Positions 21,705 through 62,101 of a stretch of DNA of 64,000 nt are shown here, one piece after another. The notes below the pieces were generated by a model. The model was not told the DNA's origin and made no database searches. It saw nothing but the letters and a program-made list of their open reading frames with translations. How positions within the stretch are numbered: position 1 is the first letter of the stretch; each line of letters opens with the position of its first letter. Both the position numbers and the translations under genes were made by a program. Source of the stretch: Quercus robur (lineage: Eukaryota; Streptophyta; Magnoliopsida; Fagales; Fagaceae); assembly GCF_932294415.1 (NCBI RefSeq), contig NC_065541.1, positions 34,133,790-34,197,789 on the forward strand, written 5' to 3'.

Positions 21705-22566
21705 ATGAAACCTGAATTTGGGACATGTTTCTTAGTGCTAGTTTCACTTTGTTATACAGTCAAAGCATCACAGTGTAGCCAAGGGTGTAAGGTAGCTTTG
21801 GCTTCATACTTTGTATTGCCAGTGTCATCAAGCGACCCCGCACCCGTAGCTAAACTTTTTGAAATATCTGACCTTAATGTAATCCAAAACCACAACACGC
21901 TCAATGTAATCCTGTTTCAAAGCTTTTTAAGATATAACTTTCCATTCTCATGTGATTGTATCGGTGGTGAATTCTTGGGTCATGTTTTCCACTACACTAC
22001 TCGGCCAAATGACACGTACGATATAGTTGCAAAAACAAACTATGTAAATTTGACCACGCCAGAGTGGTTGCAAAAGTTCAATAGCTATGACCCCAACAAA
22101 ACACTTCCAAGTAACTCAACTTTGAATGTCACTGTTAACTGTTCATGTGGGAATAGCTCGGTTTCGGAGGATTATGGCTTGTTTATTACTTACCCACTTA
22201 GGCCTTAGGAGACTGCCGACTCAATTGCATATGCGACGAATCTTACTGCAAATTTGCTGCAGATGTACAACCCAGGCGTGAATTTTAGCCAAGAGAGTGG
22301 CATAGTGTATATTCCAGGCAGAGGTAATAAAATTTTTATGCTTTTACTTTATGATTCTTTTTGCAGATATCTGAATATTTTATTTAGTGAGTGTGTGTGT
22401 GTGTGAAAAGTGATAACTAAATGGGAATTGGATATCTTGTTGTAGATAATTCAGATTAGACTTAAGCAGGACAACATCTTAGATTAGTGATAGCATGTTG
22501 TATTTTGATCCTAGATCATCAATATCATCTGTGGCTGTTGAATGATGAGATGGGGATGGTTGGAAT

Positions 22567-23167
22567 TGTTGGTGTGGGTGTGTGTTCCAAACACTTTTAT
22601 TCTTATTTATTTTCTAGCTGTTGGAAATTTATGAGTAAAATAGCCGTTGGGCAATTATGAGAAAAATTGCCGTTAGGCAATAATTGATAATATAGCCATT
22701 AGGCTTTTAAAGGTTATTAGTAACCAATAACTATAGACTATTATCTTCATAAGTAGCCTATATAATACTCATCATAATACACTTTCTAAAGGGTCTTTTT
22801 TACTACTCTATATTTTAGATATACACAAGTCTACTATCTTTCTCTCCCACATATTTTTTCTACAAGAATATTTGTTCTAAGGAAATGCAATAGGAGGTTG
22901 TTCTTAAACCTTTTGTGAGTGGAAGTGTGTGCATCACAAAGGTCGACGTTATAGTTTAATCTTGGGGGGTTGTTTGGCCAAGAGAACCAATTGCACCAAG
23001 TTTTACTTTGGGTGGCATGAATTAACCTTTAAGGACAACGCTTTCGTAGTGTAATTCTATAGCATTGTGAGATTGTTCTAAACTCTTTTTTATTTTATGT
23101 TCTTGCTAATTATTGGGATATTATTTTTTGTATCAAAACTTGTTTATTCACTAAAATATTTCCAACA
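22567..23167 (+). repeat. 5' LTR of the intron-1 copia fossil
   Basis: 601 bp, starting TGTTGGTGTGGG and ending ATTTCCAACA. It is paired with 27213-27813 at about 96% identity and preceded by the GGAAT target duplication. Confidence 0.92.
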
Positions 23168-27813: not shown

Positions 27814-30800
27814 GGAATGATTAGATTGTTCATGTTTCATTTTACGATGTGGTGGGAGGTGTTCTGCCCACAAACATGTACAAAAGAAAATGTAAATTGT
27901 GAGCTTGAGCATCCAATTTACTGTATTGGCATCTGTTGTAGACTTTTTCCTTCGGTTTGGTTTGCTTTACTTCTTCTCTTTTTTTTTTTTCTTTCTTTTT
28001 TTTTTTTATTGTCACTCAGACTAAAAGAGGGGTAAAGGGGAACAATGAACCAGTAGGCCTTTAGTTTGTTAAGTTTTTTGGTAGGCAAAGTTATCCAATT
28101 TGAACGATCAGCAGTATTTATAGTCACCAAATGAATTATAGAAAAAGTTCATTTCTTCCTAATTACAAGAAGAAAAGCCGGTCACAGATTCTATCAAGTC
28201 TTAAAATCTGAACATATAAGCCTCCTGCTAAAGCCTTCTTTCAGCACAATAGCCACCTGCAATTATAATCATCTGCCCTGCCTCCTTTCCTGGTCTTATT
28301 CTTTTTTTTTCCAATATCAGCTTTAGTTACAAGGAAGAGTTAAACCAACTTTACTTTTAACATCATTTGGCTACTTCAGTATCCTTTTCTTCTGAGCAAT
28401 CAGAAAAGGTCAGTTTATCAACAATATCTGTGTTCTGGTTAAATTGTTATTTTGGTCATAGTAGAGCTGATTTCATTTTTCACAATGCACATGTTACCAG
28501 ACGATATAAAAAGACATTGAGTCATTTCACTTTTCACAAAGCCAAATGGGAAATAAATGCAATCTTACCAAAGTAAATGATTTGATATCAAGCATCTTGA
28601 GTCTTGCATCAATATTTTTTTCCTAGTAATTTTTGGGTGTAGTGAATTTTTTCATCTTGCCTCACCAATTTTTTTTTTTTTTTTTTTTTTTTTCTTTTTC
28701 AGATCAAAATTTCAAATATCTGCCTCTGAAATTAAGGTATCTTTCATTAATCTTCAAAACCAAATAACTTAAAGTAACATCTTTTTACTGCACTGAATCC
28801 ATTATTAATCTTATAGTTTGTGTAATTTCTTTTCCCTTTTGCAGAACAGGTGGTTTTTCCTTCTTCAAACATTGGTTTTGATGATTATCTTCACTTAAAT
28901 ATTCAGATGAAATAGTGAGATGACAAAGCAGATACCTGATGCCACTTTGAACTTATATTTTCTCATATGAAGCAGGACTATCTGCTCTTGTTATTGCCTG
29001 CATATCCATAGCTGCCGTGATATTATTGGGAGTTGGTATATTTGTATGGTATTACTGAAAGAAGAAGGTGGACTCCAAATTTTTCTCAGTAGCATCTGAT
29101 GATCTATCTGCTGAAGCTATGATTGGTATTTTACTTATTATTCATATCCTTCATTCCTCACCTTCTTCTTTGTTTCTATAGATATTTATGAATGAAAAAA
29201 AAAAAAAAAAAAAAAAAAAAAATTCTTTCATAAACTGATTTCAACAAGAATTTTAAAAGTAATTTAACTCATGTTGGAAATGCTGGAAATCTAAATCAAA
29301 GGAGGTAACTGATGTACTTAAATCATAAGTCATATTACTCCTCACTCTAAACATATCATGCTTACTGTTAACCATTGCCTTTTCCTAACCAATTACAATG
29401 GGTTTCCTATGTAAAATTGATATCAATTAGTTAAAGCATTTAAGTTTTCGCGCACTAGCTTTCTTAAAGTTTTCAACAGATGTTACTCTTTCAAGGTATG
29501 TGATCGTCTGATTTTTTCTGGGAAATTGTTACTCTATATTCTAACTAGTGTAATAATGCTCATCTTAGTTTCTTTGTTCATAAAAGTGAGCCAAATTGGT
29601 CTTAGCAATATCATTAACCAACACAATTAAATTAGTTGACAAGTTTTAAGTTATGAAGTAGTGAAAAATAGGAGCATCCTGTTTAAGCCATTGACACTGT
29701 TTACTTCCTTGCAAACATTAAATTAGTTGAAAACTTTTTTTCACTAGTTATTCTTGCTTGTGCTTCAAATAGAATGAAATCAAATGGATTACTAGACTTG
29801 TGTGCTCTGATTGATTTCCCTCTCTTTTGGGTTTAGCACTTGGAAGTTCCCTGGATAAAGCAGTGGAATCTACCGATCTGGCTGCCAGTGATGGTTCTGC
29901 TTCAGGGCTCACAGGGATGAATATGGACAAATCAGTGGAGTTCTCATATGCAGAACTTGCCAAGGCTACTGATAACTTCAGTATAGCTCAAAAGATTGGA
30001 GAAGGTGGTTTTGGTGCAGTTTATTATGCAGAACTGAGAGGAGAGGTTTGTAGTCACATACATTAATCTGATTTCATAACCGGGTTGTGAAAGAAAAGTT
30101 TCATTCAAATTACTGTGAGGCGTCCTCTATCACATAGCATTGCAACTTGCTGAGTTTCTTAGTCAAGACTCAAGAGTAAGAACAATTAATCTTTACAGTA
30201 AATGATATGCTACCCACTGTATTGCAGAAGTGAAGCATTCGTTTACATATAAAATGGTGAACGCCTTCCTGTTTACCCAATTAAAAAGCTCAGAAAGGTA
30301 ATCTAAAGGTTCATAATGATAATCTATTTTCAACACACATAGCTAGAATGTTGGGGCATTTTAGGAGGTTGATTATAAGGGATTTGTGTCAGATGGACAT
30401 GAATGGTGAAAATAGGACTCTTAGAGTCAGCTCCAAATGGTTATAACTTATCTGTGACTAGTTGGGTGAAATTTAATTTCAATCTGAATGAGAGGAAGCA
30501 GATGTGAGATAAAGCCTACTGAGTGGGAAAAATGTATGAACAATTCAGTCAGCCTTTAATTTTTTCTTCGGTTAGAGCTGAAAAGGTTTCATTGCCTTCA
30601 TAATACAACTTGGCGCAGTTGCATAGTGGTGTTTATTCTGAATTGTATGCAGCACTTGCTAAATCTCTTTGTGGATACTGGATAGATATGCAAGCATCAT
30701 ATTTTTTGGCCGTATTATGCTGTTTCTCTTTGTTTACCTTGTCTTACTATCTAAATATCACCCATTAATCTGTTTATGTAGAAAGCTGCAATCAAGAAGA

Positions 30801-32968
30801 TGGATATGCAAGCATCAAAAAGAGTTTCTTGCTGAATTAAAGGTTCTAACACGTGTTTATCACTTGAACCTGGTAATACACTTTTTTTCCCAACAACAAG
30901 TGAATATGATCATTGCTTGAGAAGATGAAATTTGAATGAAAATGTTTTTTCTTTCTGCAAATAGATATAACTGATATTTTATCTAATTAATTAGTTTGGA
31001 TAATCTCTGGCATGTTACTTACCAAAGAAAAATTGCTGGCATCAGCTAGAAAGCTGTCTAGAAGTGCATGCCTGTCTTATTTTTTTCAGAGAATATCAAT
31101 ATCATCATATCATTGCATTCATCTAAACCTGATACTGAATTTCACATGGTTCCCAAGTGAGGCACAATTGGCCCTTTTTGTCAAAGACCAAAAGCTTATG
31201 TTGTATACTTACATGCACAGCTTAAGTATCCAGTGTATGCTTATGTGACTGTAGAACAGTCTTATTATCTGTTGTAGAGCTACCAATATAGATTACTGTA
31301 TCAATTTAAGCCTTTATATTGTTATAATATATTCCGTTCAGTAGAAACACAGATAATTTTACTGGTTCTTTGCTTAACTGCATAGGACTTGAAACGCTAC
31401 TTCTCTGTACTAATTACTTATTTATTTCAAAGGTTAGCTATGCATTTACTCTATCATGAATACCTTATGTCCCCCAAACCAAGCACAAAATTAGAATTAA
31501 AAGTTGTTGCATCGAATTTTAAATTACAAGTAAGACCTTATGGATTAATTATCAGAGGAGATTATTTTCAGAAGAGATTATTTGAACCTTGTAAAAAGCT
31601 TTATTTAAAAAAAAAAAAATTAAAAACGTTTTTTATTCATGTAAAGTAACCACCTGATAAATAAAATCTTTTGTCTGGGACAATTTTTCTAAGTCCCCTG
31701 CCTATATAATTCCTTGGTCAGGTTATGCAAGCAATGCAGTTGTGCTTTTTTTCTCTCAAGGATGAATGAGTTTTATGAGATTTGGTTACTTCTAAACTTC
31801 CAGATACCATGCATTACTTACAATCACTGCAGGTGCGCTTGATTGGATATTGCGTTGAGGGTTCTCTTTTTCTAGTCTATGAGTTCATTGAGAATGGAAA
31901 CTTAGGCCAACATTTGCGTGGCTCAGGTGAGCATACATGTGCACTGTGGAGATCTATTTTAGCATCATTGCTTTCAAAGAAATGGTAAGAATTATGTTTA
32001 ATTGTTCACAGGGAATAAGCACTCCCTGCCATGGTCTGCTAGGGTGCAAATAGCTCTGGATTCAGCAAGAGGTCTTGAATATATTCATGAGCATACTGAC
32101 CCAGTTTACATCCATCGTGATATTAAATCAGCAAATATATTGATAGACAAAAACTTCAACGCGAAGGTTGTATTTGTACCTCTATTGTCAGTATGGAGCT
32201 TAAAGCCTTCTCACATTTGGTACTGACATACAAATGTTGCAGGTTGCAGATTTCGGATTAGCAAAACTCACAGAAGTTGTTGGAAGTATATCATTCCCCA
32301 CACGTCTCGTGGGTACATTTGGATACATATCACCAGAGTAAGATAATGTTTTTTTCATCTACTTAGGATGTCGGTATGCGCTTAAACCTTCAGTATTGAT
32401 GGTATCTGACATTGTACTTTGGTTGACTTACCAGATGTAAGCTATCAGAATGTGTGAAGAACAGTATCTCTACAATTGGCTATTCTAAAATGCTTCTGAT
32501 AGTTTTCCCCCCAGTATATAAATTTATGACTAATAGGGCCATTAGATTGTAAATAATTGTTTAGTACTGTCCCATATATACAAAACCGGAATTAGTTGTT
32601 TTGGCCTGCTGCTTTCTGAAAATTCATTTGAGATCGTGAATGGTTGTTGGCATGCCTTTAGAATTGCAACAGGCCCTGTCCTGGATTTTTATTTATTTGT
32701 TTGTATTACTAGCTGACCAACAAACAGGTTCAGGATCCACATGGAAATGGGACTAATCTTTTCCCAAAATAGATGTCTATGCTTTTGGGGTTGTTGTTTA
32801 TGAACTTATCTCTGCAAGACAAGCTGTGTGCAAGACGAATGAATTCAATGTTGAATCAAAAGGCCTTGCCAACATGGTAAACCTCCTTGCCATTCCTCCA
32901 CTTACACTCGTATCACTTTTTTTCTTTTTTGCCAATAGCTTTATATGAAGTGATGAGGATGATTTTTG

Positions 32969-33453
32969 ACTGATCGGTATGGGGGTGCCGAACCTTCCTG
33001 GCGACCCCAAAAGGGGATGACCGACCCATGGGCTGATGGATCGAGCAATTCCCAATCCCGACGATCTATCCCCTAGTTTTTCCATGAGGTTTACGTGGGG
33101 CCCACCCACACATCCTTGCATGGAAATTACTTGCACATCACGACCAAAGATCCTACCATGCAATCAGATCTCCTTTATATGGAAAAACGATCCCGAGTAT
33201 CTTGGATTCTTCTCTCTACAAGGAAACCCCCTGCATCAAGAGATTCGGGTCAACTCTCTACTACTATATAAACCACAAACCTTACCCTTCTTGAGGTACG
33301 CGAATTCTCCCTAACTCTTGCACTCTTAAGTTCTTGAAAATTCTTCTATCACTGAATTAACCTTTGGAGGGTCCTTGGCCAATACCCACCTTGGTTCTTC
33401 TCTTTTGTTCTTCAGGTACATTCATTGGCGCGTGTGTGAACGATCAACTCACT
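32969..33453. mobile_element. 485-bp non-coding insertion in LYK-A intron 10, LTR-like
   Basis: This is a block richer in GC than its surroundings, flanked by an exact 11-bp direct repeat GATGATTTTTG at 32958-32968 and 33454-33464. Inside are a TATA-like CTATATAAACC near 33266 and a tail (GGAGGGTCCTTGGCC, TTCTTCAGGTACA, TTGGCGCG) that resembles the end of a Ty3/gypsy LTR plus its primer site. It has no coding capacity. An 11-bp duplication is long for an LTR element, so the class stays open: solo-LTR-like fossil or another non-autonomous element. Confidence 0.5.
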
Positions 33454-33909
33454 GATGATTTTTGTGCATCATCCTGAAGCTTACACTTCCTCCTGTCAAA
33501 TGCTACTCATAAGCTTTAAGAAAGCAACCTGAGCTTACTGCCCTTTTCTGTTTTACAGTTTGATGATGTTCTTAATCAGCCTGACCCTACAGAAGGCCTT
33601 CGCAAACTAGCTGACCCTAGGCTTGGAGATGATACCCACTGGACTCAGTCCTCAAGGTAAAAGATTTTCTGAAAGAACAATCTATCAAGTTAAACTTAAT
33701 GATTCCGATTCTAATAAATTTTTTTGTGACTGTTTTGGTTGCAGATGGCTCAGCTTGCCAAAGCATGCACACATGCGAATCCTCAATTACGGCCGACTAT
33801 GAAGTCTATTGTAGTTGCCCTGATGACGCTAACATCTGCTACTGACGATTGGGATATAGGCTCCTTGTATGAAAAACAAAATCTCTTCAATATAGTTCGG
33901 GGAAGGTAG

Positions 33910-34308: not shown

Positions 34309-34346
<38 letters not shown>

Positions 34347-42600: not shown

Positions 42601-42700
42601 TCTCAATATCTTCATTTGAATCGCCCTCCATCATATCATTCTCAATATGAACTTCGTTTAATTTCACATGTGAGAAAACATTTGATATTTCATCTGCCAT
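39658..42700 (-). CDS. FAR1/FHY3-like MULE transposase, one in-frame stop
   Basis: Inferred exons on the minus strand: 42700-40322, 40230-40144, 40053-39823 and 39717-39658. All junctions are phase 0 with GT..AG ends, about 918 residues. The start is MADEISNVFSHVKL after a non-ATG extension. Domains: an acidic repeat-rich N-terminus (IENDMVEVESNEN); a FAR1 zinc-binding DNA domain at about 75-190 (FAVAKRTSKK, IACSYAG, DCKAQLRLS, LDHNHGL); a MULE transposase core with DVVTFDTTY, ITDQDKAMKKAI and HRWCLWHIMNKLP; and a SWIM finger (CKCRLFEFKGIVCRHQ). A TAG at about 40694-40696, between CNAFY and VANLAADSE, interrupts an otherwise open frame. It would cut and paste the element. It resembles host FRS genes, but the surrounding TIRs show that it is a transposon gene. 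Confidence 0.87.
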
Positions 42701-43254
42701 GCCTATACAACATAATTCATAACACATTATCAAAATATAAAGTCACTTAATCATAAGAAAATTAATAATTCTAAATATTATAATTTATCCTTTCAAAAAT
42801 TTTGTGCTTCATAATCTCATTTCCAAATGCAATAGAAAAATGGAAAACCCAGTTATTACGGGCAACAAATTCACAACTTCAAGATTGCATTTTTTGTTGA
42901 TATTTCAATTTAGATTTCATTGAAACAGAATAGAGTACAAGGAGAGTATATAAAGCAGTGGAGGACCCTAAAACAAGGAACCTCCCAGCAACAATTTAGT
43001 TGAGAACAGAACAAACAATGGACAAAGTAAACTAATATCACAATAGTACATAGTAAAATAACAGAAATGCACAATAATTTTTACTGAATGAGAGCAATAA
43101 TACAGGGGAAAACAAAGAATCAAAGAGTAACGAAGAAATCTAGAGAAAATACTAGGAAAAGCGGAATGAAAAATCACCTCCTTGGATGGCAGATGGTGAT
43201 CAACTCTGAGATTTGGAAGAGAACTTTTTTTTTTTCCACAATAGATGGAGCTGA

Positions 43255-43862: not shown

Positions 43863-45568
43863 ATGAAACCCAAGTTGTGGCGGCTTTCGTTATTGGTGTT
43901 GGTCTCAGTTTGCTTTTCCATAGCTGAATCCAAATGTAGTAAAGGATGTGATTTGGCTTTAGCTTCATACTACTTTTCGGAGACGAATCTCACTTTCATA
44001 GCTCAAGTTTTGCAGTCTAACCTTAATATCAACCCTAGTACAATTGTCAGTTACAACAAGCAAACGATAGCCAATGAAAACAGTGTTCAAGATGGTGTAA
44101 AAACCCGTGTTCCATTCCCATGTGACTGTATCAACGGCCAGTTTCTAGGTCACATGTTTGAGTACACGGTTCATCCAGGGGTTACGTACATGACGGTGGC
44201 ACAGGTGTATTATGCCAATCTGACCACATATCAGTTGTTGCAACAGTATAATAGCTACGACCCCAATGATACCAACACCAATACCAATACCAATACCAAG
44301 TTGAATGTCATGGTCACATGTTCCTGTGGCAGTAGCTCGGTTTCAAAGGATTATGGTTTGTTTATTACATACCCGCTTCGGCCAGAGGACACCATCGAAT
44401 CCATTGCGTCGGCTACGAGTCTTAGTGTGGCGTTGCTGGAGAGTTACAACCCGGGAAAGAATTTCAGCCAAGGAAGTGGTGTGGTGTATATCCCAACCAA
44501 AGGTGAGTTTATTTCAGTGAAACCAAATAGATTTTTTAAGTTTGTTTGTATGAGTTTATTTTTTGGGTTATTCTATTTATTTGAATTTGATCTAAACTCA
44601 ACCTGCGTAGTGTACCTCGCTAAGAGTTTCTTATAGTAGCTCAGAGTCTTACTTTTGTTTCTTTCTAATTGAACGTACGTTTTAAATCCTATTATATCTA
44701 TTAAAAAATAAATAAATAAGAAACCATTTCGGCACTTGCAATCATTTAATTTCATTGCTAGCATTTGTTAGAATATACAAATTTCTCATCCATATAGGAG
44801 GAGAAAAGGCAATATTACCTTGTATTTCATTGAGTTTTAAGCATACCGAGATGATACCCTTTTCCTTTCAAAATAATTTCTGGGGACCATGAATTTCCAT
44901 TTGCTTGACATTTTTTCCCCTTTCTTTTCATTTGCAGATCAAAATGATAATTATCCACCTCTGGTATCAAGGTACCTTCTAAAATTTTTGTCTTCATGCT
45001 AAATGAACCTACAGCTTACTTCTGTTTCTCATTTTCTAATGTTTCTTTTCATTTTGTCCCTTTTGCAGCACAAGCGGTTTGGCCCTCTCCCACAGTTGGT
45101 TTTACAGTGATTAAGTTTTCTTTGATTTTTGGAGACAAATATGAGATTGTATAGTGGACAGCTGACACTACTTTTGTGCTTAATATTTGCTTATCAATAA
45201 GCAGGATTAGCAGCCGGAGTTATTGCTGGCATAGCTATGGGAGCTGTAGCTATTCTGCTGTTACTTGCAACTTGTATATATTTTGGATGTTACCGAAAGA
45301 TGAAGGTGGAGGCATTGTTGCCCTTTACAGCATCTGAGGGTCAGCATGGGCGTGGTATATTTATTTGTTTAGAACTCTTCCCCTCCTGTCTTGTTAACTT
45401 TTATAGATATCTGTCAAAGAGTGATTGCTTCATGGATCTACTGAATGGAAATGCTAGAAATCTCAATTAAATGAAGTGAAAATCTTATTCAATCATCATC
45501 ACATTGCTCATAAATAACTATAGATCTTATCCTTATTTATTGTTAAGCATGCCCTTACAACACCCCCC

Positions 45569-45599
<31 letters not shown>

Positions 45600-48500
45600 A
45601 AAGGCATTATAGTTCTCATTAATTTTTTTGTTTTCATATGTGAATGAATTTATCTGAAGTTGCTGACAGATGTTACTATTTTAATGAATGTGATTGTTGA
45701 TTTTATTTGAAGAGTTTGCAACATGAAACTCTCACTAGTGTCAGTACTTTGATCTATCCTTTTTTCTGCAAAATAGTTAGCAAAGTTAACCTTGGACATC
45801 CTATTTAAGCAGCTCCACTGAATCCATTGTACTGTATATAAAGAATCACTGTGACTCATAGAAACAATGAAATTGTATGGATCTTTCTACTTCTTTTGTT
45901 CAATAGAATGGGAGGTTAGACATGAGTTCACTGATTTCTTTTCCATCAATTTTATATTTAGACCCTAGACCTACCATGGGTAGAAATGCAAAATCAACTG
46001 GTCCTGCTGGTGATCCAGATAAAGCCTTGGGATTTATAGGTATGACTGTGCACAAATCAGTAGAGTTCTCGTATGAAGAACTTGCCACAGCTACCAATGA
46101 CTTCAGCATGGCTAGTAAGATTGGTGAAGGTGGTTTTGGGGCTGTTTATTATGCAGAGTTGAGAGGCAAGGTTTGTAGCCACATGTATTTTTATTCATCA
46201 TAGGCGGAATGCACATTAATCATGCACGGCAGATGCAAATTGATTAAGTAGTTGCTCTGCAACTTGATTGATTTTATTAGTTGAGTTTTGGTCATGTAGG
46301 TCTATATAAAATGATATGTTAGTCCCTCTACATAGCAGGTTTGCAACCTTTCATAACATTTGATGATAAATCTTTTAGGGATAGATGTCAAATAGGAACA
46401 CCATGCCGATCCTTTTAGATGGGAGATGGTGAGAACTTTGAATTTGAATTTGAATTTTTAACCAATTTAGAAGAGTTTGGGAACAAAATTATTAAAGCAC
46501 ATATAAAGGTTCAAGGTGAGGACTACTTTGCAAAATGAATAGCTGAATAGATTAAATGACTTCACGTAACTGTTGTATTCTTATCTTAATATGTGCTCTA
46601 TGACATATTGTTGGATATTTTAGCTACTCTAAACTAGAAATTTTGAGTTTTATTGTAAGAAAAAATTTAGTTCAGAAGTCAAGCTGGACAAAATGGTATA
46701 TATGAAATTTGCAAAGTTAGCTCCAGGTTGGATGCATGAGGGTAATTGAGTAGGGTTCAGCGCCCAATCTGGAGAAGTGGGAGTGGATGAGAAATTAATC
46801 TAACGAGTGAGAAAAATGGATGCACAGTTCAGTCAGTCTTTAGCGTTTGCTCAGGTTAAATATGAAATATACATTTATCAACATCTATGCTCTATGTTGC
46901 GTGTTGCATTTGTCATTACCCTATATGGATGGCTAAACAGGCACATCAGCTTTTAGCCATGTCATCTTGTTGTCAGTTCACTTTCCTAACAGTCCCTCCC
47001 CATCACTCAATTTGTGCAGAAAGCTGCAATCAAGAAGATGGATATGCAAGCATCCAAAGAATTTCTTGCTGAATTAAAGGTTTTAACAAGTGTTCATCAC
47101 TTGAATCTGGTAATATACTTTCTTTCCCAGGAATTTTAAAAATATATTCTTATTAAAGGTTGTACCCAAAGCACAAAGCTCCCATTTTTGTAGGGTCTGG
47201 GGGAGGTCATGGTAGGCTACCTTACCTCCAATATTTTTTTGGAGAGGCTGATTCTGGGTTCGAATTCGCAACTTGTTGCTTTTGGTGGAAGGCACTTGCC
47301 ATCACACTAAGGCCCGACCTCTAAAAATATAATGCTTATTGTTTGGAAAAAAATGAACTAAAGTTTTTCCAATCATAGTCTTTGGAGAATTGTTCACATA
47401 AGCCAGAAGCTTTATATAAATTTTCATTTATGTATCATATATGGGGGATATGATCCTCACCTCATTGCACCTATCTCATTATTATCTCATTTTTAAAGTG
47501 AAGCATCATTGGCCCATGGACCAAAGGTTATGTTGTATGCTTATATAACCAGTAATTGTCTAAATCAGTAAATCATCTGTGCAATTATATCCGTATATAT
47601 GATTTTATTAACTGATCCCTTTACTCCTTTCCATCATGTTTATACATGTACAAACACACACAGGTGAGCTCAATTAATATGTCCATCCAGGGTTAGCCAT
47701 GCCATTTATTTATCCCTTTGCCAATGCCATCCATGCCCTAAATATGACCAAAAGAGTTTTTTAAAAAGTTGAATAATAGAAGCCCTTAGAGTTGTGGTAG
47801 TTGCAAGTAAGACCTTAATGCTGAGGTGTTAGACGCTTGTACGCAGTAGTCATGTTATTTTCTCTGTTATGTAGACAGAGCTTTAAGATGTTTGATTCTT
47901 TTTTATCATCTATACACTATATATTACTTACTATCAACCAATGCAGGTGTGCTTGATCGGGTATTGCATTCAGGGTTCTCTTTTTTTGGTCTATGAATAT
48001 GTTGAGAATGGCAACTTAAAGCAACATTTGCATGGCACATCAGGTGAGATTGTATGTGCATAGTGATGATCTTTTTAAGTGATGTCACATTCAGATCAAT
48101 GGTCATAATTATGTTTATATGTTTCTAGGGAGGGACCCGTTGACATGGCCTACTAGGATACAAATTGCACTTGATTCAGCCAGAGGTCTTGAATATATCC
48201 ACGAGCATACCATTCCAGTTTATATCCATCGAGATATTAAATCAGCAAATATATTGATTGACAAGAACTTCCATGCAAAGGTTGCATTAGTAACTCTATT
48301 CTTGCTATGGATCTTCAAAAATGTGTTCACATTGTTTTATTGCATACATTGTAGGTTGCAGATTTTGGGTTAGCTAAACTGTCTAAAGTTGGAGGTGTAT
48401 CAAGCTCCACACAAGTCATGGGAACATTTGGATACATGCCACCTGAGTAAGTTTACTTTTGTTCGTAAAATTATTAACGTACGGTCATTGTTCACTGATC

Positions 48501-49137
48501 CCCTGGACTGCTTTGTAAATGGGGAGGAAAAACTTTAGCTATGATTTCTGTAAAAAAAATGGATTATTTTTACCTATCTTCTGCGCAGATATGCTTGGGG
48601 TGGAGATGTTTCTCCCAAAGTAGATGTTTATGCTTTTGGGGTTGTCCTTTTTGAGCTTATTTCTGCCAAGGAAGCATTGCTTAAGGCATATGATTCCACT
48701 TCTCAATTTCAGAGCCTTGTCTCCTTAGTAATCTTCTTTCCATCCCACTAATTAAACAGCTGGATGCTATGCTTTTACTAGGCTTACTCATGTCTGGTAC
48801 TATTCTAGGAAACCAACCTTGGACATATATTTATTTTATTTTCTGTGTTTCATAGTTTGAGGATGTTCTTAAGCAGCCTGATCCCAGAGAGGCCCTGTGC
48901 AAAGTAGTCGACCCTTGTCTTGGAGATGACTACCCACTTAACTCAGTCTGGACGGTAAAGCAACTTATACAAAAACCTATTTTTACTTTTTAATGATTTC
49001 ATTTCCCATAATTCTATAGAGTTGTTTGGTTACAGGTGGCTCAGCTTGCCAAAGCATGCACACAAGAGGATCCACAACTACGTCCAAGTATGAGATCTAT
49101 AGTGGTTGCCTTAATGCAGGACAAGCCAACACTTTGA
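43863..49137 (+). CDS. CERK1-like: LYK-B: LysM receptor-like kinase (CERK1/LYK type), open in all 12 exons
   Basis: Exons: 43863-44502, 44938-44971, an 8-nt exon after the AG at about 45068, 45205-45354, 45962-46170, 47020-47109, 47947-48043, 48129-48280, 48355-48446, 48589-48727, 48856-48954 and 49036-49137. Total 1,812 nt, 603 residues. Signal peptide 1-23; three LysM modules with CDC at 87-89 and CSC at 153-155; membrane span about 229-257; kinase with [10 protein letters not shown] (331), Lys352, Glu365, HRD 443-445 and DFG 463-465, so it should be catalytically competent. Family members at the plasma membrane bind chitin or lipochitooligosaccharide and signal to defence or symbiosis. Oddities: the protein ends [11 protein letters not shown], about 28 residues short of the usual tail; Cys replaces the usual Arg in the VRLIGYC motif; and an ACCAATACC-type repeat encodes NTNTNTNT at 137-145. 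Confidence 0.9.
45563..45602. repeat. Poly(C)-poly(A) tract in LYK-B intron 4
   Basis: A run of 27 C followed by 13 A. The same composite tract (23 C then 9 A) sits at the matching place in LYK-C at 58511-58542, so it predates their duplication. The exact lengths are likely to be affected by sequencing error. Confidence 0.85.
47155..47321 (+). mobile_element. SINE-like insertion in LYK-B intron 6
   Basis: About 167 bp, absent from the matching intron of LYK-C. It is flanked by imperfect duplicates TAAAAATATATTCTTATT (47137-47154) and TAAAAATATAATGCTTATT (47322-47340). Inside, GGGTCTGGGGGAGGTC and GGTTCGAATTC (a good RNA polymerase III B box) resemble tRNA-derived plant SINEs, ending ACACTAAGGCCCGACC. 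The clean presence/absence contrast between the paralogs makes it an insertion; the SINE class is inferred. Confidence 0.65.
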
Positions 49138-50206
49138 CAGAAAAATTAAACAATAACAAAAATTAATGATAGAAACCTAGGAATCAGTATCAAGTTTTGC
49201 TTGGAAGGCTTTGTTTGTTTGAGGATGGAAAAATAGGGGATAAAAAATGGTAAGAGGATGAAAAAGTGGGAGGATAGGAAAAAAAAAAAAAAAAGTTCTC
49301 TCTCGTTTGTTTGGTTGGGGGTAGAAAAGTGGAGAGATAAAAAATTCTTTTATTTGGTTAAGAAGAAAAATAAGATTATAGACAATAGAATTTGTATAAA
49401 TTTACTTTAATGCCTTTATTACATAAATTTTTAAAAATATTTTATGAAGGAAAAAGAAGTATTGTTGGAATAAATAAATTAAAAAAAAAAAAAAGCTCAA
49501 ACATTGGTTTAAAAAAAAAAAAAAAATCAATGCACATATGGTTTTAGGGTGTAGATAAGTAATTTTCTTCAAACCATGTCTCCTCCCCCATTTTTTCCCC
49601 AATTTGGGGTGTTGAATTTTGGTGAGTCTAGAAAGAAAACATGAGTCCCACCTCCCCTCCCAACCAAATATCTCCCCTAAATATTATCCCCACAAATTAG
49701 CCCAACCAACCAAACACAACCTAAGTAAAAATAAATAAATAAATAACTACTAAGAGTTGGTACTTTGATTGGTTAGAGTTGGTACTAGATCATGGAGACA
49801 ATCTCAATTGAAACTTTTATTCATCAAAATAAGTTCTTACAATAGGGGTATAATATTTGTTCATACATGAATACTAAATCTTATTTCTAATTCACATAAA
49901 TTTTTTTTTTTTTAAAAATCTAATTGATATAGAAAACCCTAATTAAATAATTACAAAGATAACCCTATCTTTAAATAAATACTAATAAACCCAATTAAAT
50001 GGTATGACCTAAAAATAAAATAATTTACTAGCACACTTAAATGATACTAAATTAAAATAAATATCTCCTTGTGTTTGTCAATCTAATGCTTGGAAAGGTA
50101 GAAACATCTATTTTGTTAGTTCCCAGCTAACTGTGTTAGCTATCAAAAGGATTAGTAATTCACCAAATAGAAGAACTATGTGGTAGTAAAATAAAGAAGT
50201 TGAAAC
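49138..50206. other. LYK-B downstream spacer, possible MITE at about 49205-49725
   Basis: GTTTGTTTGAGG/GTTTGGTTGGGG phrases near 49208 and 49306 and CCAACCAACCAAACACAACC near 49703 are loosely inverted, as in the common GTTTGG-type plant MITEs, but no target duplication could be fixed. The rest is AT-rich with no ORF of note. The normal 3' coding end of the gene family is not found here. Confidence 0.35.
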
Positions 50207-51449: not shown

Positions 51450-53067
51450 ATGAAACCCAAGTTGAGATTTTTAGTGTTGGTGTTGATGTCAGTTTGTTGT
51501 TCCATAGCAGAATCCAAATGTAACAAAGGATGTGATTTGGCTTTAGCTTCATACTACATGTGGAAGGACTCAAACCTCACATTCAAAGCTCAACTTTTTC
51601 AGTCCAACCTTAACATCGACGCTGATACTATTCTCAGTTACAACAAGAAAACCATAAACAGCAAAGACAGTGTTCAACAAGGTGTAAGAGCCAATGTTCC
51701 ATTCCCATGTGACTGTATTGATGGCAAGTTTCTGGGTCATGTGTTTGATTACACGGTTCAATCAGGGGACACGTACGAGAAAGTGGCGCAGACTTGGTAC
51801 GCGAATCTGACAACGTACGAGTTGTTAAGGCAGTACAATAGCTATGACCCCAATATGATACCTGATGAGAATGCAAGGATGAATGTGACAGTGACATGTT
51901 CGTGTGGGAATAGCTTGGTTTCGAAGAAATACGGTTTGTTTATTACGTATCCACTACGGCTAGGGGACACTGCGGATGCAATTGCTTCGGTTACAGGTCT
52001 TAGTGTACCGTTGCTGAGGAGTTACAACCCTGGTATATATTTCACACAAGGGAGTGGTGTGGTGCACTTCCCAGGAAAAGGTGTGGCTTGTTTGTCAAAC
52101 CTTTTGAGTTAAAAATTTTTTTATTTATTTATTTTATTTTTGAGATATGAGATTTGGGATTTTGTTCATTAGATTTATTTGGTTAGGTTCAGAGGTGTGA
52201 AATCTTGTCTTCTTTCTTCTCACCAAAACAAAACAAAAACAAACAAACTTGTCTTTTTCTAGATGTATTTGTATTTTTATATGCTACCTTTTTTTAATTT
52301 CTTTTTTATATTTAAAAAAAAAAAAAAAAAAAACCAATGAAAATGACTCACCTCTCTATTGAATTAAAGCAACTAGCAGTAAACAAAATCTGATAAAATT
52401 AAATTTGGTCTTCTCTAAACAAATTCTAGTTAAATTAAACATATATGGTTTTCCTTTTTGATATTATTCTAGCATGATTATCACATTGGTGATTTTGACA
52501 GTGATTCCTTTTTCTTTTTTTTTCTTTTTTTTGTTTACCATGATGCACATTTGTTCAATTCCAAATTCTGTGAAAAGTATTCGCTATATCCTTTGTCTAT
52601 TGCACCAAGGGGCCACAATAATTATGCAAAATTATGCTTTCCTTGAGTTTAAAGCATATCGAGATGATACCCTTTTCCTTTCAAAATAGTTTCTGGGGAC
52701 CATGATTTTTTAAATTAGCTTGACATTTTTATTCCCATTTATTTCCATCTGCAGATCAAAATGATACTTATCCACCTCTGGTATCAAGGTACCTTCTACA
52801 AATTTTATCTTCATACTAAATGAACCTACAGCTTACATCTGTGTCTCATTTTCTATTGTTTCTTTTCATTTTATCCCTTTTGCAGCACAACCGGTTTGGC
52901 TTTCTTCCACAGTTGGTTTTACAGTGATTATGTTTGCTTTGATATTTGGAGACAAATATGAGATTATAAAGCGGGCAGTTGATGGTGCTTTTGTGCTTAA
53001 TATTTGCTTATCAATAAGCAGGATTAGCAGTCAGAGTTATTGCTGGAACGGCTATGGGAGGTGTAGC

Positions 53068-53556
53068 TGTAGGGAATTTAACAAAAAATTCCTAACCTGT
53101 GAGAAACAAAACAAATAGAGAAAACACACGTCAAAGAAAATAATCACACGCACAAGACAATATTTACGTGGTTCGGCAATTTGCCTACGTCCACGGAGTT
53201 GCAGGGATTTCACTATTATCAGGGAAAATACAATAGTGCACAAGAACACTCAAGAAACCCAAATCCCAATTACACCCTAGCACTCTCTCACAGAAAAAAA
53301 TAAGAATAGAAGCTGGCTGCCTCTCTTTTCTCTATTTTCTCTCATGCGGCTTGCTCACTAGGTTAATTAGGATTTCTCTCTTTTTTAATCTCTCGGCATT
53401 GCCGCATATAATGAAGCATATATATATATATATATGTTACTTTATGAAAGTCGGCTGAGTGGATTCCTTTTTCAACTTGTATTAGGTCACCTTTATGGCC
53501 GGATTGGGCTTGGTTGGGCCTTATGGGCTTGTGGTAAAATTCAAGCCACACTAACA
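53068..53556 (-). repeat. LTR of the young copia element (3' LTR in element orientation)
   Basis: 489 bp, TGTAGGGAATTT...CACTAACA as read on the + strand. It matches 57641-58131 except for a shorter A run near its start. It contains a TA microsatellite at about 53417-53436. Confidence 0.95.
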
Positions 53557-56500
53557 AATCTCCACCTTGGCTTGAATTGATCAAGCTACACTAGCAAACT
53601 CCTCCATCAGCTCCACCTTAGCCCTTAAGGGCTCACAAGCTGCAAACATCAGCCACAATCCTCCATAACACAGTCCCTCATCCCTGCAACTCATCCTCCT
53701 GTCCTCAAGCTAGAAGACCAATTGAAGCTGCGCACAGCTTCAACTTCTCAATAGTGACACCCTTAGTCAACATGTCTGCCGGGTTCTTAGATCCACAAAT
53801 TTTCTCAAGCATTACCAGCTTATCTTCAACAAGATAACGGATAAAGTGGTATTTTGTCTGTATGTGCTTCGACTTTGAATGAAAAGCCGAATTCTTGGCA
53901 AGAAAGATTGCACTCTGACTGTCACTGTGTAGAATGCCCATCTCCTGCTTCTTACCCAATTCTTCTAAGAAACCATGTAGCCAAATCATCTCCTTTCCAG
54001 CTTCAGTTGCTGCAACATACTCAGCTTCTGTAGTAGACAAAGTAACAATCTTCTGTAGATTTGAAGCCCATGATATAGCTGTACCACCCAGAGTAAAAAC
54101 AAACCCAGTAGTACTCTTTCTACTATCAATATCACCAGCAAAATCAGCATCTACATAACCCTGCAGTTTCAAACTTGCACCTGTGAAGCAAAGACATGTA
54201 TCTGATGAACCCTTCAGATATCTCAGAATCCACTTGACTGCCTCCCAATGCTGCTTTCCAGGCCTACTCATGAATCTGCTCACAACTCCCACTGCATGTG
54301 CAATGTCTGGCCTTGTACACACCATAGCATACATCAAGCTGCCAATAGCTGAGGCATAGGGCACCTTGCTCATGTGGTCCCTTTCTTCTTCTGTCTTCGG
54401 TGATTGTTCTTTGCTTAGTTTGAAATGACTACCCAAGGGTGTGCTCACTGGTTTGGCTTCATTCATGTTGAACCTGCTGAGAACTTTCTTCACATACTCT
54501 GACTGTGAAAGCTTCAATGTACCATTAGCCTTGTCTCTAATGATTCTCATACCAAGGATTTGCTTTGCAGCTCCCAAATCCTTCATTGCAAACTGTTTGG
54601 AAAATTGCTTCTTCAGATTATTAATCTCCTCAATGCTAGACCCTGCAATAAGCATATCATCCACATATAACAGTAATATGATGTAAGAATTGTCAAAAGA
54701 TTTAACATAGCAACAGTGATCAGCTTCACATCTCTTGAACCCAATTCTATGCATAAAACTGTCAAATTTCTTGTACCACTGTCTAGGAGCTTGTTTTAGG
54801 CCATACAAGCTCTTTCTCAGTTTGCAAACTAAATTCTCTTGTCCTTGAGCAATGAACCCTTCTGGCTGAATCATGTAAAGGTCTTCCTCCAAGTCACCAT
54901 GAAGGAATGCTGTCTTCACATCTAACTGCTCAAGATGTAAGTTTTCTGCAGCCACCATTCCCAGTACTAGTCTGATTGTTGACATCTTCACAACTGGAGA
55001 AAATATCTCTGTGTAGTCAATGCCTTCCTTCTGCTGGAATCCTTTAACAACTAATCTGGCCTTATAACGTTTGCTACCATCATGCTCATTCTTTATTCTG
55101 TATACCCACCTGTTGTGCAAAGCCTTCTTTCCTACTGGCAATTCAGTCAGTTCCCATGTCTGATTCCCCAACAAGGAATCCATCTCATCCTTCATGGCTA
55201 ACTCCCACTTGCTTGAATTCTCATCTTGCAAGGCTTCATTATAACACTCTGGCTCACCACCATCAGTCAACAGGAGATAATTTAGACTGGGTGAATAACG
55301 CTGTGGAGGTCTAATGTTTCTGGAAGATCTGCGGACTTCAGCTACAGGTGTACTCAGATCTACTTGTGAATTTATATTCTCCTTATCTTCTTCACCCCTT
55401 TTCTGGACAGTACCTTCAGTCAATTCATCTAAGTTGACAAACTCAGATTTCTTTTGATCTATCCCTGTAACATCTGACACTACAGTTGACCTGTCCTTGT
55501 ACATAACCTGTTCATTAAATATCACATTTCTACTTTTGATGATTTTCCTGTTTTGTTCATCCCAAAACCTATAGCCAAATTTCTCATCACCATAGCCAAT
55601 GAAAAAACATATTTTAGACTTTGCATCAAGTTTACTACGAGCATCAGAATCAATATGAACATAGGAAACACAACCAAAAACTTTTAAGTGTGAAAACTTT
55701 ACCTCTTTACCGCTCCAAACCTCCTCAGGAAGTCTGAACTCCATGGGAACTGAAGGTCCTCGGTTTATTAGGTAAGCTGCAGTGCTAACAGCATCAGCCC
55801 AAAAAGTTTTTGGTAGTCCAGCATGCAACCTCATACTCCTAGCACGCTCATTGAGAGTTCTATTCATGCGCTCAGCCACACCATTCTGCTGTGGTGTCCC
55901 AGGAATGGTCTTCTCCATCCTAATTCCCTGTGCAGCACAATACTCACTGAACCCTCCATCTATGTACTCTCCTCCATTATCTGACCTCAAACATTTTACT
56001 TTCAAACCTGTTTCTGTCTCAACCATGACCTTCCACTTCTTAAAGGTTTCAAATACATCTGATTTATTTTTCAGAAAATAAACCCATACCTTTCTACTTG
56101 AGTCATCAATGAAAGTAATGTAGTACCTTGAACCTCCAAGGGATGCAACCGGAGAAGGTCCCCACAAATCAGTGTGTACTAACTCCAATTTTTCAGCCTT
56201 CGGTGTCCTGCCAGTTTTCAAGAAGCTCACCTTTTTCTGCTTTCCTAAGATGCAACTTTCACACATGTCAAAATCAATGGACTTCAATTCTGGTAGTTTT
56301 CCTTTTGACAACAGCATCTTCATCCCTTTCTCACTCATATGACCAAGTCTGCGGTGCCATAGGCTTGTATTAGTACTTGCATCAGCAACTGCAATTGTGT
56401 CTCTTGGACTTGAGGTCATGTACAGAGTACCAGTCTTCTTTCCACGAGCCAATACCCTAGCTCCCTTTGTAACCTTCCAAGTACCACCAACAAATAGTAT

Positions 56501-57640
56501 TGCATGTCCTTCATCATCAAGTTGTCCAACAGAAATCAGATTCCTCCTCAGGTCAGGAATATGTCGAATCTTTTCCAGTAACCAAACAGACCCATTGGGT
56601 AACAATATTCGAACATCTCCCATACCCACAACATCCAAGGCTGAACCATCAGCCAAATACACCTTACCAAAATCACCTGCAACATAATTATGTATGATTT
56701 CTCGGTGTGGAGTGGTATGAAACGAAGCTCCTGAATCCAAAACCCAATCATCAAGTGGACTGTCTACTGCAAGAAGTAATGCATCCTGTACCTCTTCTGT
56801 TACAGCATTAGCTGAATCATCTTCATTCTTCTTCTTAGGACTTTTGCATTGATTCCTAAAGTGACCTGTTTTCCCACAATTCCAGCATTGTACTTGTTGG
56901 CCTGATCTAGATTTACTTCTGTTCCGATTAGAATTTCTGGATTTTGATCTGCCCCGATTTGAATTTCTGTTATTACCTCTGCCTCTTGTCTCAAGGTTTA
57001 GGGCAGAACCAGATCCTGAGGATTCACTTGCATCTCTTCTGCGAATCTCCTCAGCCAGAATTAAATCTCGTATATCATTGTACTTGAGTTTTTCCTTTCC
57101 TGTAGAATTGCTTACTGCCATCCTCATTGCCTCCCAACTGTTTGGCAAAGAAGCCAAGACGATCAGAGCACGAATCTCATCATCAAAATCAATTTCTACA
57201 GACGACAATTGATTTGTGATAGTATTAAATTCATTCAGATGTTGTGCTACTGATGCATTCTTTGCCATCTTCAGATTGAACAGTTTCTTCATCAAGTGCA
57301 CCTTATTGTTTGCTGACGGCTTTTCATACATACCAGACAAAGCTTTCATCAGATCTGCTGTGGTCTTCTCCTTTACAACATTGTGTGCAACAGACCTAGA
57401 CAGAGTTAACCTGATAACTCCTAGTACCTGTCTATCAAGAAGAGCCCATTCCTCAGCCTTCATAGCCTCAGGTTTTTCCCCTAGAAGCGGTTGATGCAAT
57501 TTCCTCCCATAAAGGTAATCCTCAATCTGCATCCTCCAATACGCGAAGTCTGTGCCATCAAACTTTTCTATTCCAGACGCCTTTCCTGCTTCCTCTGTCA
57601 TTGCTCCCACTTAAACCTAACCCTAGGCTCTGATACCAGT

Positions 57641-58131
57641 TGTAGGGAATTTAACAAAAAAAATTCCTAACCTGTGAGAAACAAAACAAATAGAGAAAAC
57701 ACACGTCAAAGAAAATAATCACACGCACAAGACAATATTTACGTGGTTCGGCAATTTGCCTACGTCCACGGAGTTGCAGGGATTTCACTATTATCAGGGA
57801 AAATACAATAGTGCACAAGAACACTCAAGAAACCCAAATCCCAATTACACCCTAGCACTCTCTCACAGAAAAAAATAAGAATAGAAGCTGGCTGCCTCTC
57901 TTTTCTCTATTTTCTCTCATGCGGCTTGCTCACTAGGTTAATTAGGATTTCTCTCTTTTTTAATCTCTCGGCATTGCCGCATATAATGAAGCATATATAT
58001 ATATATATATGTTACTTTATGAAAGTCGGCTGAGTGGATTCCTTTTTCAACTTGTATTAGGTCACCTTTATGGCCGGATTGGGCTTGGTTGGGCCTTATG
58101 GGCTTGTGGTAAAATTCAAGCCACACTAACA
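57641..58131 (-). repeat. LTR of the young copia element (5' LTR in element orientation)
   Basis: 491 bp and next to the Met-tRNA primer site, hence the transcription-start side of the element. Its transcription would run antisense through the element and towards LYK-C exons 1-3. Confidence 0.95.
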
Positions 58132-58510: not shown

Positions 58511-58542
58511 CCCCCCCCCCCCCCCCCCCCCCCAAAAAAAAA
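58511..58542. repeat. Poly(C)-poly(A) tract in LYK-C intron 4
   Basis: 23 C followed by 9 A, at the position equivalent to 45563-45602 in LYK-B. Confidence 0.85.
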
Positions 58543-61500
58543 GAAAAAGACATTATGTTTCTTGTTAATTTATTTTTTTCATTTCTGAATAAAGTTATCT
58601 GAAGTTGCTGACAGATGATACTCTTTCAATGAATGTGATTGTTGATTTTATTGAAAGAGTTTTCACTGGTGTTGGTGCTCTGATCTTTCTGCAAAATGGT
58701 TGGCCAATCTAACCTCAGACATCCCATTTAAGCATCTCCTCTGAATTGTTTGAACTTTATATAAAGAGTCATTGTGACTGATAGAAACAATGAAGTTGTA
58801 TGGATCTTTGCTTCTTCTTCTTTTTTTCAAGTGGGAGCTTAGACATGAATTCACTAAATTTTTTTACCTCTGTTTTTATTTAGGCCATAGACGTACCAAG
58901 AATAGACATGCAGAATCAACTGGTCCCAGTGGTGGTCCAGCTTCAGGTCATATAGGTATAACTGTGCACATATCAGTTGAGTTGAGTTCTCGTATGAAGA
59001 ACTTGCCACAGCTACTAATGACTTCAGCATGGCTAGTAAGATTGGTGAAGGTGGTTTTGGGGCTGTTTATTATGCAGAGCTGAGAGGCAAGGTTTGTATT
59101 CATAAGTATTTTTTTTCATCATAGGTGGATTGTACATTAACAATGTATGGGAGATTTGCAAATTAATTATGTGGTTGACTCTGTAACTTGACTGATTTTA
59201 TTAGTCAAGAGTTTTATTCATTTAGGTCTATAATAAATGATATACTTGTTCGTCTACATGCTAGGTTTGCAACCTTTCGTGACATTTGATGATAATCCTT
59301 TTAGGGAAAGATATCAAATAGGAACACCATAGTGATCCTTTTAGATAGGAGATGGTGAGAACTTTGGTTTTCAATTTTTATTTTTAATCAAGATGATATT
59401 GGGAACAAACTTATTAAAGCACATATAAAGGTTCAAGGTGAGGACTACTTAGCAAAATGAATAGCTGAATAGATCAAATGACTTTAGTAACTTTTGTATT
59501 CTTATCCGAATATGATTATATTTTTTGTGAATTTTAGCAACTTTAAACTAGGAATGTTGAGGTTGATTGTAAGAAAGAATCTAAATACAAAAGTCAAGCT
59601 GGACAGAACGGTATATGTGGAATTCGCAAAGTCGGCTCTAGTTTATATGTATGAGGCTAGTTGAGTAAAGTTTAGGTACCAATCTGGAGAAGTAGAAGTG
59701 GTAATGAGAAAAATGGATACACTGTTCAATCAACCTTTAACCTTTGCTCATGCTAAATAAGAATTTGTACATCCATCAACATCTAAGCTCTACATAGCAT
59801 TTTGCATTCGTGATTACTCCGTATGGATGGCTAAGCAAGCAAATCAACTTTTAGCTATGCCGTCATATTATCAATTTTCACTTTCCAAACAGTCTCCCCC
59901 CATCACTCTTATCTGTGCAGAAAGCCGCAATCAAGAAGATGGCTATAGAAGCATCTAAAGAATTTCTAGCTGAATTAAAGGTTTTAACAAGTGTTCCTCA
60001 CTTGAACCTGGTAATATACTTTCTTTCCCAAGAATACTAAAAGAATATGCTTATTGCTTAAAAAGCTAAATGAAAGTTTCATCAATCATATTCTTTGAAC
60101 ATCATTTCTGGAAAATATAATCTGCCTCCCAAGAATTGAAATGATTGCAGACAGAAGGAAATTTTGGTTGATTTATTTACTTGTAGTTGTGGTTATTGGG
60201 GGAATCCTATATCCATTAACTAATAATAATGATGCTCTGGTAGGATGGATTTTTATCAGTCAGCTGTGTATTAAATACAAGTGTGCATCCAAAAAATGCA
60301 GTAGCCATGTTATTTTCTCTGTAGTGTAGATAGAACTTTAAGATGTTTGATTCTCTTCTTTTTGTCTATACGCTATATATTACTTACTAACAACCAATGC
60401 AGGTGTGCTTGATCGGGTATTGTGTTCAAGGTTCTCTTTTTTTGGTCTATGAATACATTGAGAATGGCAACTTAAATGAACATTTGTGTGGTTCATCAGG
60501 TGAGATTACATGTATATGGTGATGATGTTTCTAAGTGATGTCAAATTCAGATCAATAGACATAATTATGTTTATATGTTTCCAGGGAGGGACCCCTTGCC
60601 ATGGTCTACTAGGGTACAAATTGCCCTTGATTCAGCTAGAGGTCTTGAATACATCCATGAGCATACTCTTCCGGTTTATATCCATCGTGATATTAAATCA
60701 GCAAATATATTGATAGACAGGAACTTTCACGCAAAGGTTGCATTAGTATTTAGTAACTCTATTGTTGCTATGGATCTTCATAAATTTGTTCACATCGCTT
60801 TATTGCATTGTAGGTTGCAGATTTTGGGTTAACTAAACTGTCTAAAGTTGGAGGTGTTTCACTCCCCACAAGTGTCATGGGAACGTTTGGATACATACCA
60901 CCTGAGTAAGTTTACTTTTGTCTGTAAATTTATCAAGAGAGTAACAATTTCAGCAATGGGAGATGGAATTGGGGTGTTTTGCAGATGCGAGCTGCTGTTA
61001 GAAGGACCCTATATAAGCTCAATGAGTGGCTATCTAGAGTTTTCTCTGCCAGTCTATAATTTTCTGACCAGAGGACTTGCATTGTGTGTGATTGATAAGC
61101 AATGTCCAACATTTGATACATATCTATGAGATTGTTTGGGCTTGACGATTTATTAATTTCACTAGTGGTTAATGGCATGGCAGCTGCCATCAAAAATTTG
61201 AGAGACCTTTCGTTAGTGATAATTTATGCTTTTTTAGGTGCCAGGATATGCCTCTCTTTTTTCCCCTATTTCTGCCAATATTTTATCCTGTGTTACTGTT
61301 GATATTTTGTTCTTCTGGCCACTGATGTTCTCCTTGGAAATGGATTTCACAAAGATGAGTTCGCTACTCATTGTTTACTGATCCCAGGGACTCCTTCCTA
61401 ATATGGGAGGAAAAACTTTAGCTACAATTTCAGTAAAAATTGGATTATTTTCTATACCTTCTTTGCAGATATGCTCGGTATGGAGATGTTTCTCCCAAAG

Positions 61501-62101
61501 TAGATGTATACGCTTTTGGTGTTGTCCTTTATGAACTTATTTCTGCCAAGGAAGCTGTTCTCAAGGCATATGATTCCACTTCTGAATCTAAGAGCCTTGT
61601 CGCTTTAGTAATCTTCTTTCCATCCCTCTAATTAAACAGCTTGATATGAAGCTTTTATTAGGCTTACTCCTGTCTAAAACCACTTTCAAAGAAATCAAGC
61701 TTGGACATATATTTATTTTATTTGTTGTGTTTCACAGTTTGAGGATGTATTTAATCAACCTGATCCTAGAGATGACTTGCGCAAAGTAGTTGATCCTCGT
61801 CTTGGAGATGACTACCCCCTCGACTCAGTCTGGACGGTGAAACAATACTCACACAAAAACCATTTAAGTACTTTTTTGTGATTAATTTCATTTCCAATGA
61901 TTCAATAGAGGTGTTTGATTGTAGGTGGCACAGCTTGCCAACGCATGCACACAAAAGGATACGCGACTACGTCCAAGCATGAGATCTATTGTGGTTGCCT
62001 TGATCATACTTTCATCGACGGCTGAGGATTTGGAGGTTAGCTCTGTTTATGAAAATCAAGCTCTCGTCAATCTAATGTTCAGAAAGGTAGAATGCAGATA
62101 G

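Follow-up and report, generated by a model that had tools for sequence, protein, structure and literature searches.

The window is a stretch of 64,000 nucleotides from Quercus robur (NC_065541.1, our contig C37, positions 34133790-34197789; window position = genome coordinate - 34133789), and it contains part of a cluster of LysM receptor kinase genes. An earlier note, written from the sequence of the window, had described three collinear genes of the CERK1/LYK receptor family. The family call was right, and blastn between parts of the sequence confirmed the three copies, LYK-A, LYK-B and LYK-C, all on the + strand with starts at 21705, 43863 and 51450. We searched the genome (786 Mb in 42 contigs) and examined 303 kb of C37 around the cluster; coordinates above 64000 continue the window frame downstream. 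The LYK-B ectodomain had seven strong matches on C37 among at least 20 matches listed, i.e. A, B, C and four located downstream. In the 303 kb, the array comprises seven LysM exons and four kinase modules, which are found behind A, B, C and G only. The downstream units, all outside the window, are the orphan LysM exons D (87372-87999), E (106239-106875) and F (108693-109332) and the gene G (113474-120292). The window covers the decaying half, on the upstream side, of a larger array of the CERK1/LYK3 type (LYK-I), and the sole complete LYK gene that we found, G, is located about 50 kb past it.

All seven first-exon translations carry the CDC and CSC motifs, with three LysM domains and their CxC motifs in one first exon, and the hydrophobic N-termini visible in these translations are candidate signal peptides. 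Residues 23-213 of LYK-B exon 1 align to solved LysM receptor ectodomains. Pfam LysM_RLK (PF23577) matched all five copies scanned (B, G, D, E and F) at 3.2e-19 to 2.7e-24, LysM2 (PF23472) was above its cut-off in four of the five, with B below it (23.4 vs 27.4), and no LysM1 model reached its cut-off in any of them. LYK-I genes follow a plan of 12 exons, and both B and G have 12 exons with equal phases. As judged from their translations, B and G have conserved motifs of an active-type kinase, including MPPE, and a Pfam kinase domain of nearly full length.

Three receptor genes within the window

LYK-A is a dead copy. Its first exon (21705-22323, LysM ectodomain) is inactivated by an in-frame TAG at 22206, and exons 2-12 (28703-33909) are degenerate: exon 4 lacks a GT donor and contains a TGA at about 29056, exon 6 (30782-30872) has gained 1 nt, exon 10 (32745-32876) has lost 7 nt and its aligned acceptor has no AG, and exon 11 (33559-33656) has lost 1 nt. 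These lesions, at least five in number, bear out the several independent ones reported before. A long element on the + strand (15912-21301), presumably a LINE (long interspersed nuclear element), lies directly upstream of LYK-A, with gag-like, endonuclease-like and 1015-aa reverse-transcriptase-like frames. Between LYK-A and LYK-B, an open frame of 682 aa on the - strand (40694-42742) resembles what we take to be a FAR1/Mutator-type transposase-derived protein.

LYK-B has an open 12-exon model with a translation of 603 aa (604 codons with the stop) and GT-AG borders at 11 of 11 introns. Exon 1 (43863-44502, donor GTGAGT) encodes a hydrophobic start and an open LysM ectodomain, in which a short in-frame Thr-Asn repeat (44265-44300), absent from the other six copies, stands just before the second CxC. 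Exons 2-11 (44938-44971, 45069-45076, 45205-45354, 45962-46170, 47020-47109, 47947-48043, 48129-48280, 48355-48446, 48589-48727 and 48856-48954) measure 34, 8, 150, 209, 90, 97, 152, 92, 139 and 99 nt, exactly as in the earlier description of the 12-exon plan. Exon 12 (49036-49137) is truncated. B, C, A and G are alignable through the stretch ending in the region of VVALM; past VVALM (49116), LYK-B no longer follows the family and reads QDKPTL and a stop, whereas G proceeds from the same point with TLSSATEDWDVGSFYNNDALVNLMSGR and then a stop. At 50077-50103, 960 bp past the break, 27 bp match the LYK-C coding end (62066-62092) with 88.9% identity and an E-value of 4e-4, although the match is short and stands among low-complexity hits of similar E-value. 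Because the LYK-C end reappears there, this is the probable displaced end of exon 12, and about 60 nt of the exon have probably been replaced by about 960 bp of repeat-bearing DNA (49117-50076). The left half of the insert (query 76-493 of the 957 bases searched) is a repeat found on 12 contigs, in a search with 42 matches listed including the self-match and 40 of 1312 candidates scored.

As a whole gene, LYK-B has lost its C-terminal tail to inserted DNA; read from the alignment, this loss is independent of the displaced-end match. The tail after the kinase is present in G, and its last codons are altered in C. A complete tail may be a family feature, which is our own reading and not a published criterion. 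Our limited literature search found no role for the tail of CERK1/NFR1, only tail roles of BAK1 and BRI1 in the available parts of the sources (PMC10317173, PMC11970910). The claim that only LYK-B is open throughout stands for its reading frame and fails for its end, and the idea that LYK-B is the cluster's intact gene was rejected as stated. The earlier note had itself named a missed lesion in LYK-B as the result that would overturn its observation, and exon 12 holds such a lesion. MPPE instead of APE was considered as a further LYK-B kinase lesion, but both G and the best solved match read MPPE as well, and the idea was rejected. The kinase fold of LYK-B should survive the loss of the tail because the solved kinase chain 9gb9 ends at VALMTLSS. 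LYK-B may still be expressed; its kinase, nearly full length in Pfam, is under purifying selection.

LYK-C appears to have been inactivated recently. Its first exon (51450-52080, donor GTGTGG) is an open LysM ectodomain, followed by exons 2 and 3 (52755-52788 and 52886-52893). A full-length retrotransposon on the - strand (53068-58131) interrupts exon 4, the exon for the transmembrane helix, with a target duplication GTAGC. It has one open frame of 1301 aa, from which its Copia-like type was read, and its long terminal repeats (LTRs; 53068-53556 and 57641-58131) show 0 substitutions over 489 aligned bases and 2 gap columns. The insertion is probably very recent, as the LTR comparison suggests; at 1e-8 to 2e-9 substitutions per site per year, it would be no older than roughly 0.3-1.5 million years. 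Exon 5 (58884-59091) carries a frameshifting 5-nt duplication (a GTTGA repeat near 58980). LYK-C is broken twice in ways that matter, and the earlier note had also given it two lesions. Exons 6-12 (59921-60010, 60403-60499, 60585-60736, 60814-60905, 61469-61607, 61738-61836 and 61925-62101) are open, and 1 extra nt alters the last codons and moves the stop to 62101, the end point given by the earlier note. The displaced end of LYK-B carries the same extra base, so this change is probably older than the inactivation of both B and C.

A codon model of 286 kinase codons estimated the ratio of nonsynonymous to synonymous substitution rates (dN/dS, omega) for single branches. Omega was 0.41 for LYK-B (twice the log-likelihood difference, 2dlnL, 5.99 against omega = 1 and 1.91 against one common omega), 0.18 for LYK-C (19.7 and 1.86) and 0.27 for G (21.4 and 0.02). 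The comparison of dN/dS per copy, suggested earlier for the three copies in the window, was run on B, C and G; no branch differs significantly from the common omega, and no relaxed constraint was detectable in LYK-B or LYK-C over these codons. LYK-C as an old pseudogene was rejected in view of LTRs without substitutions and of the lowest kinase omega, which is not significantly below the others.

Gene G and the orphan LysM exons

Gene G has 12 exons and 626 codons with the stop, with GT-AG at every intron; the donor of exon 1 is at 114110 and exon 2 at 115680. D, E and F each have an ATG in alignable flank, an open exon 1 and a retained GT donor, and exon 1 length modulo 3 is 1 in all seven copies. 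The three donors score 8.2 (D), 7.0 (E) and 8.8 (F) bits with a matrix built from 22 B and G donors, which themselves range from 2.8 to 9.8 bits. In every pair among B-G, though not for A, the 5' flanks can be aligned upstream of the ATG, over lengths of about 14 to 240 nt. Downstream, similarity to intron 1 of G extends to about +960 in E, +1200 in D and +1730 in F and no further. No kinase exon was found behind D, E or F: tblastn with B (E-values up to 10) gave no kinase match in 62005-115943, and blastn with the G locus gave none. E, F and G are compact, and the sequence between D and E contains Gypsy-like and LINE-like frames, as read from translations.

Exon-1 pieces occur on other chromosomes too, as seen from LysM first-exon fragments with in-frame stops at C5:67614385-67614813 and C39:26465815-26466156. 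C5 also holds a second LYK-like cluster (74252668-74338467) with four juxtamembrane/kinase matches (near 74260328, 74297787, 74319821 and 74337843) and one matched LysM exon (74252668), the opposite of what C37 shows; LysM exons of greater divergence may have gone undetected there.

The exons without a kinase give the impression of being maintained, not dead. In pairwise comparisons of D, E, F and G, none of seven indel events in exon 1 breaks the frame, whereas 23 of 26 in the 5' flanks and 36 of 41 in the intron, together 59 of 67, are not multiples of 3; the counts come from six pairs, which are not independent, and flank and intron offer less aligned sequence than the exon. A codon model of exon 1 (205 codons, B-G with A left out, two partitions) gave a single omega of 0.52 (2dlnL 24.3 against 1). 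With the terminal branches of D, E and F as one class, omega was 0.52 for both this class and the background, and omega = 1 was rejected (2dlnL 9.12). B and C had 0.58 (2.75) and 0.38 (13.44), and the short G branch was uninformative (1.2, 2dlnL 0.05). LysM1 evolves fast, with an omega of 0.89 that is indistinguishable from 1, and the rest of exon 1 slowly, with an omega of 0.39 (2dlnL 35.0 against 1), the tree of the second partition being poorly supported (bootstraps 34, 43 and 64). The earlier view of the locus as a snapshot of birth-and-death fits A-C; the observation was largely accurate apart from the sentence that left LYK-B without a lesion, and the most interesting part lies outside the coordinates it covered.

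First exons have also exchanged sequence. Over a block of 259 bp in exon 1 (positions 75-333), E and G do not differ at all. The block takes in LysM1, the CxC hinge and the beginning of LysM2; elsewhere the two share 84% of the signal-peptide part, 88% of LysM2/3 and 72-77% of the intron. For F and G, identity is highest in LysM2/3, at 96%, and reaches 88% in LysM1. It is 80-82% for the 5' flank and the signal-peptide part and 79% for the near intron, and it drops to 39% at +800 to +950 as the alignment fails. Runs of concordant polymorphic sites were compared with 10000 shuffles for each of 10 pairs over 412 polymorphic columns, a test that assumes exchangeable sites and is indicative only. 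No shuffle (0 of 10000) gave a run as long as the 71 sites of E-G, and none (again 0) equalled the run of 18 between B and F, which share an 84-bp identical stretch in LysM1; the counts for the other pairs were 0 for D-F, 24 for F-G, 37 for B-D, 65 for E-F, 388 for D-E, 407 for B-E, 6620 for D-G and 7541 for B-G. For D-F, the run is intronic and is not taken as a sign of conversion. On the evidence of the E-G and F-G block identities and concordance runs, the G ectodomain reads as a two-part mosaic of neighbouring exons, E-like in LysM1 and F-like in the rest, with either direction of exchange. The discrimination between chitin and lipochitooligosaccharides has been mapped to LysM1 by domain swaps (PMC7728800, PMC13331592), and LysM1 of two pea paralogues carries signs of balancing selection (PMC5694491), according to the available text of these papers.

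Alternative first exons and competing explanations

We lean towards the reading that alternative LysM first exons, at least E and F and perhaps D, feed one CERK1/LYK3-type kinase, that of G. E and F, and less surely D, are read in this way because of the precedents of LYK3 in Parasponia and Trema and of LYM2-2 in Populus. From the anatomy, the joint constraint and the exchange that we observe, we infer transcription of the orphans, splicing to G exon 2 and differences in ligand. D, E and F would each start their own transcript and read out a LysM ectodomain in a single exon with a common end phase, and splicing onto G exon 2 would place several ectodomains on one kinase. A wider version, which we consider doubtful, is a locus of cassettes in which several LysM exons with their own promoters feed one kinase via alternative first-exon splicing and domain-sized gene conversion trades LysM1 among them; one receptor gene might then try out many ligand specificities, in the single plant as well as in the course of evolution.

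Several observations weigh against D, E and F as first exons of G. Any exons of only 34 or 8 nt behind D-F may have escaped the searches, the E donor has the lowest score of the seven exon-1 donors, and D is the least likely to splice onto G exon 2, which is 27.7 kb away with retroelement-like frames between. Without splicing, D and E reach a stop 2 codons past the donor and F 6 codons past it, so that secreted LysM-only products are possible. Single branches are weak against omega = 1: D has 0.62 (2dlnL 3.12) and E 0.45 (2.83), and F (0.26, 4.64), which alone among the three rejects neutrality singly, we still count as weak. The orphans have an omega of 0.56 in the LysM1 part (2dlnL 2.13 against 1) and of 0.48 in the rest of exon 1 (8.12), where the background has 0.34. 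In neutral simulations, the chance of having no stop was 0.04 for D, 0.36 for E and 0.61 for F. The kinases of the orphans may also have been lost recently, and part of the constraint would then be older.

Some of these points bear on ordinary birth-and-death, in which G is the working gene, the rest is debris, and D, E and F are truncated dead duplicates that are open by chance. A and C are clearly dead, exon-1 fragments with stops also occur on C5 and C39, E and F, with their short branches, would often be free of stops by chance, and D and E singly fail to reject neutrality. E, F and G are not young, however: they differ by about 18-28% over most segments of the flank and the near intron. 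All exon indels are nevertheless in frame, and the joint omega of 1 is rejected; we regard birth-and-death as rather unlikely. The early stops past the donors could instead be natural ends of independent genes for secreted LysM-only proteins, such as soluble co-receptors or decoys, which the hydrophobic starts and the LysM units of D, E and F (Pfam LysM_RLK and LysM2 above cut-off) would fit. We consider this quite improbable: G has a kinase and yet meets the same kind of early stop beyond its donor, so such a stop can exist without selection, and the donors have been kept.

The exchange itself points to one more explanation, in which the orphans serve mainly as a sequence reservoir, with domain-sized gene conversion in either direction between the LysM domains of E, F and G, as with donor cassettes elsewhere. 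The 259 bp identical between E and G lie inside segments that are 72-88% alike, the 96% of F-G over LysM2/3 lies inside near segments of 79-88%, and no shuffle reached the E-G run. Passive conversion is common between tandem copies and needs no function, and conversion alone would not keep the orphan frames open; we regard a reservoir as the main role as very unlikely. Conversion and alternative first exons can be compatible. If E and F do serve as first exons of G, plants would diversify glycan sensing by first-exon swaps rather than by duplication of whole receptors, at a class of receptors, LYK-I, where immunity (chitin) and symbiosis (lipochitooligosaccharides) fork. With open LysM exons outnumbering complete kinases and LysM1 moving as a block, first-exon swapping is directly testable here. 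LYK clusters scored by whole genes and pseudogenes can miss functional parts, and an apparently good copy can be the wrong one.

Comparison with known LysM receptors

The closest solved proteins are 9gb9 (kinase) and 9h6v and 5ls2 (ectodomains), which are listed as 'LysM type receptor kinase' and which we take to be Lotus CERK6. They are the best matches of G and B and share their order of motifs, the G kinase matching 9gb9 at an E-value of 3.2e-168. G has MPPEYAQYGD as in 9gb9, whereas B differs by YAW and its truncated tail and C by YAR. In the accessible part of PMC6207691, YAQ is described as important for nodulation, and a kinase with YAQ in dicots, or YAR in monocots, is the mark of symbiosis-competent LYK-I receptors, which G carries. 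The legume NFR1/LYK3 clusters (LjNFR1-LYS1-LYS2, Medicago LYK and pea Sym2) are likewise tandem LYK-I clusters with the receptor domain in exon 1 (PMC6025957, PMC6207691, PMC5694491); in the available descriptions they consist of whole genes, whereas most downstream units in oak are exon 1 only. Among the open-licence papers in the matches listed, none reports a comparable array of LysM exons.

Two known systems use alternative first exons, as far as the accessible text of the sources describes them. LYM2-2 of Populus x canescens has alternative first exons, each with three LysM domains, and shared downstream exons (PMC13402948); unlike G, it encodes a glycosylphosphatidylinositol-anchored LysM protein without a kinase and has two first exons only. 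The other is LYK3 of Parasponia and Trema (PanLYK3.1/3.2), like G a LYK-I receptor with a duplicated exon 1, in which exon 1 alone was duplicated and each copy has a putative start and is spliced to the shared exon 2, within a family whose exon structure is highly conserved (PMC7536700). The oak locus shares the features of this type, i.e. kinase-less copies of exon 1, a common phase and a donor that scores. It differs from Parasponia and Trema in having four LysM exons before or within one kinase gene, three decaying LYK copies adjoining and domain-sized exchange among the exons, and it is known here from its exon anatomy.

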